This document shows, piece after piece, positions 22,643 to 25,558 of a stretch of DNA of 32,071 nucleotides. A program made the position numbers and the translations under genes. The stretch is taken from the NCBI GenBank assembly GCA_019912545.1, contig JAIOIK010000039.1, forward strand, positions 1 through 32,071, written 5' to 3'. Position 1 is the first letter of the stretch; each line of letters starts with the position of its first letter. The stretch comes from Ignavibacteria bacterium (GTDB lineage: Bacteria; Bacteroidota; Ignavibacteria; Tepidaquicellales; OLB5). The notes below the pieces were generated by a model. It saw only the letters and a program-made list of their open reading frames with translations. It was not told the DNA's origin and searched no databases.

Positions 22643-22663
22643 AAACTGAGGAATTATTCATTA

Positions 22664-22718
22664 AATCCGCAAACCCAAATCCCTGCCTGCAGCAGGCAGG
22701 CGAATTCCGAAATCCAGA
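22664..22718. repeat. Degenerate 7-nt (TCCGAAA-type) repeat tract interrupted by a 19-nt palindrome
   Basis: Read on the plus strand, the tract gives units such as TCCGCAA, ACCCAAA, TCCGAAA and TCCAGAT. It is broken by CCTGCCTGCAGCAGGCAGG (22682-22700), a perfect GC-rich palindrome. Removing 19 nt restores a TCCGAAT unit in register with its neighbours. The tract lies between the convergent 3' ends of the SDR gene and the LVIVD gene and abuts the stop codon of the latter. Confidence 0.65.
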
Positions 22719-23669
22719 TCAGTACTGATAATCAATCCTCAAAATCTTCAACTTCTTATCGCTTGTAGCCACAAAAATATATTTTCCTTCTATCAACGCT
22801 ATCCGGTTTATCGTCTTATCGTTCTTGTAATTGCCTGCAAAGTAAAAAGTCTTGGCATCTTTATTGAAAAAGCCTTCGATTGACTTGTCATCAGCAACCC
22901 AGATATAAAAGTTAGATGCAACAACCTGTTTGGCAGATTTCCTTGAGTAAAGATTAGTTACCCATTCCGGAAATGGCAATTTAGTAATATTAATTACTTG
23001 CACACCGGTATTACCTTGCGGAACATATGCATAATTACCGTCAACAAATGGTTCATAGAATTTAACACCGTTTGTGTAAGAACCAACGATCGGCAGCTTT
23101 GCTATATCGTTAACATCAATAATTGAAAGGTTTGCATTAGTAGTTGTTATGTAAGCCTTCCTGTCTTTAACAAAAATTCCGTTCGCTTCGCCGCCTGGTA
23201 TTATCTGAGTATTTTTGAGAATAGGGAAGTCTGCAATATTTACATCATATACCTGCAGGCCGGCTGATTGATTCAGAACGTACATATAGCCGTAATCTAT
23301 TACAAGTTTTGTTATAGTTCCATTTGTTAAAATTGAATTTCTGAGTGCCGGCGGGTCTTTAGTGAAATCGAAAAGTGATATTCCGCTTCCGGGACCGATT
23401 GAATATGCTATCCTTCCGGAAAATGCCATGCTTTGAGTACCGTTAAGCGCACCTAAATATGATTCGGCATACTGATCAAAAGGCTCAGTTGTATTAAATG
23501 CTGTCAGAGTGCCTCCTGAGATAACATACGCGACGCCTTCGTTAACCAAAATATCACGGCCCTCACTGCCAAGAGAGTATTCTCTCACAAGTGTAAGGTA
23601 AACCTGGTTTGCTGAAACATTTATGCTGATAATGATAAGAAATAACGGTACAAGCTGTATTTTTAACAT
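22719..23669 (-). CDS. LVIVD-repeat-like beta-propeller protein, exported
   Basis: I place the start at ATG 23669, giving 316 aa with a clear signal peptide (MLKIQLVPLFLIIISINVSA). The frame is open further upstream to 23810, but that part overlaps a terminator and has no export signal of its own. The mature protein is built of repeats of about 40 residues carrying hydrophobic-x-Asp-Val/Ile blocks such as LQVYDVNIADFP, LSIIDVNDIAKLP and VQVINITKLP, alternating with AYV- or AYI-type strands. This resembles LVIVD propeller repeats of surface or secreted proteins. No enzymatic function can be assigned. Confidence 0.7.
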   Translation of the reverse strand: MLKIQLVPLFLIIISINVSANQVYLTLVREYSLGSEGRDILVNEGVAYVISGGTLTAFNTTEPFDQYAESYLGALNGTQSMAFSGRIAYSIGPGSGISLFDFTKDPPALRNSILTNGTITKLVIDYGYMYVLNQSAGLQVYDVNIADFPILKNTQIIPGGEANGIFVKDRKAYITTTNANLSIIDVNDIAKLPIVGSYTNGVKFYEPFVDGNYAYVPQGNTGVQVINITKLPFPEWVTNLYSRKSAKQVVASNFYIWVADDKSIEGFFNKDAKTFYFAGNYKNDKTINRIALIEGKYIFVATSDKKLKILRIDYQY

Positions 23670-23829: not shown

Positions 23830-23943
23830 GTAGGGAACGCATTTGAACGATTAATTTCATGGAAGATAAATTTTCGATCATGAATAATCGCTTCTGTTCG
23901 AATATTGCTAAAATGCCTGCCCGTACAGGCGGGCGTTCCCTAC
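23830..23943. mobile_element. MITE-like palindromic element with 15-bp terminal inverted repeats
   Basis: The left end is GTAGGGAACGCATTT (23830-23844). The right end is its exact reverse complement split in two: AAATG (23911-23915) and CGTTCCCTAC (23934-23943), separated by CCTGCCCGTACAGGCGGG (23916-23933). The interior is also partly palindromic (CGATTAATTTCATG near 23848 against CATGAATAATCG near 23879). It encodes no protein. Together with the terminator at 23766-23793, it accounts for most of the 313-bp gene-free stretch at 23670-23982. Confidence 0.65.
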
Positions 23944-23982: not shown

Positions 23983-25143
23983 TCAGCTTAGAACTTTCTT
24001 TATCCTGTTTATGGCTTCGTTAATATTCTCTACTGAATTTGCATATGAGAATCTAATATACCCCTCGCCATATGCTCCGAAAGACGTTCCGGATAGGCAT
24101 GCAACACCTGCTTCATAGAGCAGCTTATCAGCCAGCTCTTTAGATTTAAATCCGGTGCCCGTTATGTTAGGGAATGCATAAAATGCGCCATCAGGCATTG
24201 AGCAGTTGAATCCTTTTATGCTGTTCAATCCTTCAACTATGATCTTCCTTCTCCTGTCAAACTCTGCAACTATCTCAACAACTGCATCCTGGGGTCCGTT
24301 AAGCGCTTCTATGCAGCCTTTCTGTACAAATGCGTTATTGCATGAATTACTGTTGACCATTAGCTTTGTAATAACCGGAGCGAGCTCTGTATTCATAATG
24401 CCATATCCTGCGCGCCAGCCTGTCATAGCATATGTCTTTGAAAATCCATCAAGTATTATCGTTCTGTCCTTAAATCCATCAATTTTGCTTATCGAGTATG
24501 ATTCAGCTCCATCATACACTATCCTTGAATAGATCTCGTCGGAAAGTATCATACAATCCCTGTTCTTTAGTATCTCTGCCATTTCGTGAATAACCGCTCT
24601 TGGAATCGTCTTCCCGGTTGGATTACCCGGAGTGTTAATGATCACAAGCCTGGTTTTATCCGTTACTGATTTTTCGAACAGCTTCAGATCAACATTAAAA
24701 TTATTTTCCTGCGTAAGCGGCATCGGCACAGCTTTTGCTCCTACAAAATTTATCATTGATTCATAAATAGGGAAGCCTGGATTTGGATACATGGCCTCAT
24801 CGCCGTGCTGTAATAGTGCAAGTATCACAAAGAACATTATGGGCTTGGCTCCCGGAGTCATAACAACGTTTTCGGGAGTAAACTTCACATCGCGTGTCCT
24901 TGAAACATAATCTGCGATTGCTTTGCGCAGTTCGGGAGTGCCTGCAGCCCCGGTGTAATGCGTATCGCCCGCCTGTATTGATGCTACTGCTGCATCGCAA
25001 ATGTTTTTTGGAGTAGGGAAGTCAGGTTCGCCAATTTGAAGGTGAATAATGCTTTTTCCCTCAGCTTCCAAAGCCTTGGCTTTAGCCAATACCTCAAAAG
25101 CTGTTTCTGTTCCTAATCTGGATATTCCGTCAGAGAATTTCAT
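23983..25143 (-). CDS. Class I/II PLP-dependent aminotransferase (aspartate aminotransferase-like)
   Basis: Fold-type I aminotransferase, 386 aa. The N-terminal LQIGEPDFPTP (35-45), Asn174 in NTPGNPTG, Asp202 in SDEIY, the PLP lysine K236 in DGFSKTYAMTGWRAGYG and the C-terminal RFSYANS arginine are all present. These are typical of the prokaryotic subgroup that includes AspC and related aspartate, alanine or aromatic transaminases, so substrate choice is uncertain. ATG at 25143. Its transcript likely ends at the hairpin at 23766-23793. Confidence 0.93.
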   Translation of the reverse strand: MKFSDGISRLGTETAFEVLAKAKALEAEGKSIIHLQIGEPDFPTPKNICDAAVASIQAGDTHYTGAAGTPELRKAIADYVSRTRDVKFTPENVVMTPGAKPIMFFVILALLQHGDEAMYPNPGFPIYESMINFVGAKAVPMPLTQENNFNVDLKLFEKSVTDKTRLVIINTPGNPTGKTIPRAVIHEMAEILKNRDCMILSDEIYSRIVYDGAESYSISKIDGFKDRTIILDGFSKTYAMTGWRAGYGIMNTELAPVITKLMVNSNSCNNAFVQKGCIEALNGPQDAVVEIVAEFDRRRKIIVEGLNSIKGFNCSMPDGAFYAFPNITGTGFKSKELADKLLYEAGVACLSGTSFGAYGEGYIRFSYANSVENINEAINRIKKVLS

Positions 25144-25213: not shown

Positions 25214-25558
25214 TCAGTACTTATTTAGATTTCGTATTGTGGATTTCGGATTATTGATTTTGGCTGTTTTCCCTGAGCTTGTGAATATGGCAACTAATTC
25301 ATTAGCCTCTTGAATTAAACCGGAAATCTTTGGTTCTTTGATGAATCCGGCATCATTTATCAACTCAAGCCAGAACAATGATTCATTAGCTTCTTCCTCG
25401 ACAATCGTAATTTTAGAGATAAAGTCTGCTTTGGATCTTGCCCGGCACGCTGCCCTGTAATTAGCACCAACAGATGTTGCTGATCTTAACAACTGATTTG
25501 AAACAACACTTGCCGCCTTAGTATTCGGCAAAGCCTCTGTGAGCTTCATTATCCTCAA
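25214..25558 (-). CDS. Four-helix-bundle (S23/IVP-like) protein with an interrupted N-terminus
   Basis: The 114-aa frame carries the hallmark QLLRSATSVGANYRAACR, then ARSKADFISK and IVEEEANESLFWLELI blocks of the S23-like four-helix-bundle family, whose cellular role is unknown. The frame starts at TTG 25558, but the family N-terminus continues upstream in the same frame: ATG at 25600 gives M-T-K, then a TAA stop (25589-25591), then ELKQRTKQFALRIMKLTEALP. The gene has therefore probably lost its native start region to a nonsense change or begins at a downstream start. The C-terminal residues NNPKSTIRNLN are translated from a flanking heptad repeat tract. No rRNA gene is nearby. Confidence 0.8.
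   Translation of the reverse strand: MRIMKLTEALPNTKAASVVSNQLLRSATSVGANYRAACRARSKADFISKITIVEEEANESLFWLELINDAGFIKEPKISGLIQEANELVAIFTSSGKTAKINNPKSTIRNLNKY
25219..25256 (-). repeat. Degenerate 7-nt repeat tract at the 3' end of the four-helix-bundle gene
   Basis: Read on the minus strand the tract is TCAATAA, TCCGAAA, TCCACAA, TACGAAA, TCTAAAT, a run of heptads. It forms the last codons of the gene. It is in the opposite orientation to the tract at 25641-25711, so the two frame the gene as imperfect inverted repeats. Confidence 0.6.

Follow-up and report, generated by a model that had tools for sequence, protein, structure and literature searches.

Repetitive extragenic palindromes of the GTAG type (GTAG-REPs) have been reported as hairpins of 20-40 bp in which a GTAG tetranucleotide is placed asymmetrically beside the stem (Di Nocera 2013, PMC3733652). 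Their single-strand cleavage by TnpA_REP, guided by this GTAG, is established (PMC8266576). At a still smaller scale, the passages of PMC4390886 that deal with SDR5 of cyanobacteria describe precise insertion of this repeat in HIP1, between bases 3 and 4.

The element described here lies at 23830..23943 of the window (the whole stretch of 32,071 nucleotides that was analysed) and is a real and largely explained feature: a GTAG-tagged hairpin repeat with a long loop and a nested 18-nt module. It resembles the GTAG-REPs and their RAYTs (PMC3733652; PMC8266576) by the GTAG beside the stem, the dispersed copies, a RAYT gene that is both flanked and entered by copies, and copies lying in frame within genes. 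However, it differs from them by its length (96-100 nt), its ~67-nt loop, which is not conserved in sequence, its low copy number and the CTAC complement of its tag, which lengthens the stem in two of the three species. Like the REPINs (Bertels and Rainey 2011, PMC3116915), it has conserved inverted ends at a near-fixed distance, a less conserved middle and a link to RAYT; unlike them, its single arm is no palindromic REP and the hairpin needs both arms. Indeed, no internal hairpin was found in single arms such as GTAGGGAACGCATTT, where pairing occurs only from arm to arm, and because the arms do not fold alone the element is not a standard REPIN. It is a new variant, a long-loop RAYT-linked GTAG repeat, and its nested 18-nt palindrome, a candidate mobile unit, is the most interesting part.

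Structure, copies and stem evolution

The 5' stem arm (GTAGGGAACGCATTT, 15 nt, 23830..23844, + strand) is the exact complement of AAATG, the inner part of the 3' arm (23911..23915, +), followed by its outer part CGTTCCCTAC (23934..23943, +), once the 18-nt palindrome CCTGCCCGTACAGGCGGG (23916..23933) is skipped. A direct check of the sequence thus confirms the split repeat announced in the preliminary description. This palindrome, hereafter the module, separates stem pairs 10 and 11. The GTAG tag occupies 23830..23833 on the + strand and a second one, read as CTAC on the + strand, occupies 23940..23943 on the - strand. The loop (23845..23910) contains in the window copy the pairings CGATTA/TAATCG and TTCATG/CATGAA, in agreement with the partly self-complementary interior noticed earlier, and as single-stranded DNA the element folds with z = -4.9. 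In the predicted DNA fold of the window copy, outer pairs 1-11 are retained, with the module forming its own separate hairpin.

The genome to which the window belongs is a draft of 3.66 Mb in 206 contigs. The arm motif GTAGGGAACGCAT, with at most one mismatch, occurs 30 times in it, against 2 occurrences for the reversed control, so the arm match is not due to chance. Sixteen two-ended copies were found, including that of the window; the other 15 measure 96-100 bp and all are devoid of the module, and the window copy accordingly measures 114 bp (96 + 18). Three single ends are unpaired (C46, C76:37205 and C177). The search for copies sharing both ends and the comparison of copies with and without the module, both suggested by the preliminary description, therefore gave clear answers: the element is not a single copy, its ends at 23830 and 23943 are those of the family, and the window copy is filled where its 15 sisters are module-free.

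The stem was analysed by aligning 20 module-free copies of two species: the window's genome contributed 15 and the sister genome G006 the other 5. The outer 15 positions are paired in 98.7% of the cells, and pairing ends sharply at pair 16, followed by the looser inner helix CGATTA/TAATCG; slid controls brought pairing down to 30-52%. Changes on both sides of a pair were observed at pair 9 (C-G/T-A, 9:10 split), at pair 14 (C-G/T-A, 14:6) and once at pair 8, and the observed covariation score was reached by none of the 500 shuffles. Pairing, compensatory changes and the shuffle test together indicate that the palindrome is kept as a stem, as in GTAG-REPs. In the same 20 copies, GTAG is kept at the 5' end, at the foot of the stem-loop, in 19 and CTAC at the other end in 15.

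Between orthologous copies (four pairs, two species), identity reaches 94% in the arms, 80% in the loop and 82% in the flanks. The arms differ significantly from the loop (p = 2e-4) and from the flanks (p = 3e-4), whereas loop and flanks do not differ. The loop, judged from these identities, therefore looks neutral in sequence yet near-fixed in length (about 66-70 nt). The pair C174/C307 was rejected as orthologous, its alignment being confined to the element.

The nested 18-nt module

The module is itself a dispersed repeat. Over the 3.66 Mb of the genome, CCTGCCCGTACAGGCGGG has 5 exact copies; 17 are counted when up to 3 mismatches are allowed (0 for the reversed control), and 15 further places match it within 2 mismatches. 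Its hosts are mutually unrelated in sequence and each is entered at a fixed point: (i) the repeat TGTCAGG^TCCTCAGACCTGACA, with 6 filled and 16 module-free copies (genome-wide, within 2 mismatches), (ii) the repeat GACAGACAGGAATG^TCTGTC, with 4 filled copies and module-free copies at, for example, L042 and L130, (iii) the repeat CCTGCCTGCCGA^AGACTCGGCGCAGGCAGG, with 2 filled copies and no empty one seen in the loci examined, and (iv) the element of the window, with 1 filled and 15 empty copies. The base preceding the module in the main hosts is G (ATG or AGG). A further copy, in C70, is inserted in frame in a gene for a secreted protein (...IYKVDF-PARTGG-NGSAYASGIYFYRIES...), where it encodes PARTGG inside the type IX secretion sorting domain TIGR04183 (45 bits, cut-off 23); no comparable insert was found in other sorting domains among the loci examined. 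Such type IX domains suggest that the host belongs to a Bacteroidota-like lineage. This copy recalls the Rickettsia palindromic elements (RPE) which, in the lines that PMC3733652 devotes to them, are palindromic inserts in frame in coding genes, with the difference that the module has only 18 nt and encodes only PARTGG.

The preliminary description had left the choice between insertion and excision of a GC-rich palindromic module. The 15 module-free sisters, the module-free alleles of two further hosts and the coding gene with its standout insert make insertion, without target duplication, the more parsimonious interpretation. Excision is not supported by any observation, since the module is absent from all other copies of the element family.

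With its fixed insertion points and its empty and filled copies, the module behaves as an SDR-type sequence, i.e. a very short dispersed repeat precisely nested in others. SDR5 is its closest parallel, as a very short repeat lying precisely inside another repeat, the likeness being one of description. SDR5, which Elhai is said to have described in 2008, reportedly measures 21-27 nt, whereas the module measures 18 nt, occupies unrelated host repeats and belongs to another phylum. In either orientation, the 18-mer was not found mentioned in the literature searched.

Outside this genome, among the matches listed when 84,980 species genomes were scanned, numerous contigs from several species of Pedobacter contain the exact 18-mer. 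Of 395 genomes sampled in the phylum of the window's genome, this genome alone contains it, which makes its distribution patchy; the identity with Pedobacter may reflect transfer or shared ancestry. The Pedobacter modules occupy one fixed point of a CGTC-type repeat, GTCATCTCGAC...GGAATG^GAGAGATCT. In the loci examined, the distance between GTCATYTCGAC and GAGARATCT is 17 (26 copies) or 7 (5 copies) without module, 35 (13 copies) or 25 (9 copies) with one module, and 53 (6 copies) with two modules in opposite orientations. The steps are thus of exactly 18 nt (17/35/53), with no target duplication. Adjacent opposite modules, CCCGCCTGTGCGGACAGG followed by CCTGCCCGTACAGGCGGG in one host repeat, are seen at L176, L186, L192, L214, L225 and others. 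A RAYT-like ORF was noticed near the Pedobacter modules at one locus of the set (L168), and no regular linkage was found.

We tentatively suggest that this 18-bp palindrome is a mobile unit, among the smallest known, that would insert precisely and without duplication, chiefly in the arms of hairpin repeats (CGTC-tagged, GTAG-tagged and others); its identity in the genus and in Pedobacter would imply a dedicated enzyme reading folded single strands. It is likewise conceivable that the module does not move as a unit and was acquired from repeats already holding it, through recombination or template switching, which would leave the reading of the host element unchanged. Most module sites indeed fall within repeats or palindromes, which favour switching, and the doubled modules in Pedobacter would fit such events, whereas the absence of sequence relationship between hosts, the site within a coding gene devoid of flanking homology and the insertion of exactly 18 nt at defined points speak against it. 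Since empty and filled sites can be counted in many genomes, the movement of such "very small" repeats becomes directly testable in Pedobacter, which is culturable.

RAYT linkage and origin of the element

In the congeneric genome G008, about 15 copies of the element keep GTAG at the 5' foot and have mostly lost the complementary CTAC, the stem being GGAATGCATC/GATGCATTCC next to an unpaired GTAG. This is the asymmetry of the GTAG-REPs (PMC3733652). Several of the G008 copies (L150, L152 and L153) also have an extra common flank, ATTGGGGTGGTGTGATCATAA on one side and CAGGAT on the opposite side, giving the impression of a repeated unit larger than the stem-loop.

The same genome provides the linkage to a RAYT gene that is expected of a REPtron. 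The gene in G008:C33 has copies of the element on both sides and a third one in frame inside (L050:1054-1149, 1502-1600 and 1905-2001). The encoded protein contains the MPNHVH and YIxxNP motifs, matches Pfam Y1_Tnp with 25 bits (cut-off 23) and has as its best NCBIfam match REP_Tyr_transpos (REP-associated tyrosine transposase), with 63 bits, below the strict cut-off of 80. The in-frame copy (L318:3230-3325) sits in the variable linker that joins the HUH half to the tyrosine half; this linker is longer than in all 12 aligned relatives, which is consistent with the presence of the copy. In two other RAYTs, a distinct GTAG repeat lies in frame in the same variable linker (G000:C63, L312:2274-2297) and a GTAG hairpin lies inside the ORF (G000:C167, L311).

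GTAG hairpins also accompany many further RAYTs of the order, either next to the gene or within it, with a stem particular to each RAYT. The closest relative of the G008 protein (G003:C300, 53% identity) is associated with GTAG-GGGTCGCAT-AT-ATGCGACCC, a hairpin that shares 7 of 9 stem bases with the element and has a loop of 2 nt. In the window's own genome, the RAYT at C63:54520 is accompanied by GTAG-GGAA(C/T)GGTC hairpins, and the stretch GTAGGGAA(C/T)G is common to them and the element. No RAYT flanked by the exact element was found in this genome, where the driver may have been lost or may be a cousin RAYT.

Considering the RAYT linkage, the GTAG asymmetry and the similar short-loop hairpins at sister RAYTs, we interpret the element as a GTAG-REP with a loop that has grown to ~67 nt. 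It is therefore likely a GTAG-tagged long-loop element of REP type, mobilised in trans by a RAYT (TnpA_REP, HUH/Y1) and later interrupted by an independent 18-bp mobile palindrome. Its size exceeds the 20-40 bp of GTAG-REPs (96-100 bp, 114 bp with the module), the excess corresponding to the long loop, and its copy number of 16 is low for REPs, which counts against a GTAG-REP.

We infer the following course of transposition, including the strand and the cleavage sites. The 15-bp stem would form in single-stranded DNA, for instance on the lagging-strand template, where RAYT would read the GTAG guide and the lower stem, cleave at a nearby CT/CA and re-insert the single strand, with no duplication of the target. 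The loop sequence would not be read by RAYT and would drift, its length staying near 66-70 nt. Later, the 3' arm received the module between pairs 10 and 11; as the outer pairs 1-11 would still form and the module would fold out, the GTAG end and the lower stem would remain available. A RAYT-linked family with a freely drifting loop of ~67 nt would mean that RAYTs accept substrates containing unconstrained DNA, and such a long-loop element allows testing which parts are read by RAYT.

One alternative is a structured host-function RNA or mRNA-end element, now immobile, that would serve the stability of transcript 3' ends and whose stem would have undergone compensatory evolution. It would account for arms that are more conserved than loop and flanks among vertically inherited copies, for the strong RNA fold of the window copy (z = -5.5) and for the position of this copy directly downstream of the stop of a pyridoxal-phosphate aminotransferase gene (23983..25143, - strand, NCBIfam matches). 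We nevertheless consider it improbable. The element is confined to 3 of the 13 genomes examined in the genus, and it is missing from the syntenic intergenic site in 9 relatives, too diverged to define the junction; no Rfam match was obtained in the window, and copies occur at unrelated loci and within a RAYT gene. For the mobile reading, it counts as a weakness that no clean before/after site was found for the window copy: in the nearest species, 87% identical, the contig ends inside the aminotransferase gene, and the other relatives are too diverged.

The term "MITE-like" used in the preliminary description is retained only in part. The terminal inverted repeats of 15 bp that characterise DDE-type MITEs are present, and the ends are shared by the family, but no target-site duplication above 1 bp recurs at the 15 junction pairs, read by eye, and no long element with the same ends was seen, since no pair of ends encloses a gene in the own genome, a draft. 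A junction identity that stops at 1 bp is easier to reconcile with a single-strand mechanism than with a DDE one, and the "terminal inverted repeat" corresponds better to the stem of a RAYT-linked, GTAG-tagged REP hairpin. A classic MITE, that is a remnant of a DDE insertion sequence moved as double-stranded DNA with target duplication, is hence very unlikely: its conserved inverted ends, its length of ~97 bp and the base just outside the element, identical on both sides in 11 of the 15 copies and readable as a 1-bp duplication, would suit it, whereas the lack of longer direct repeats at the junctions and of a gene enclosed by paired ends, the evolution of the arms as a covarying stem, the GTAG tag and the RAYT linkage do not.

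Neighbourhood in the window

Upstream of the element on the - strand, the aminotransferase gene, syntenic in the genus, is adjacent to a gene for a four-helix bundle protein (25214-25558, - strand; TIGR02436, 85 bits). The gene downstream on the same strand (22719..23669, -), whose start codon was chosen here, shows a weak choice-of-anchor-B similarity. Finally, a second GC-rich palindrome, CCTGCCTGCAGCAGGCAGG, was noticed at 22682-22700 within an AT-rich stretch. Further short matches to the region ~22661-22715 of the window were seen on at least 6 other contigs, and on this basis the palindrome is probably another repeat.
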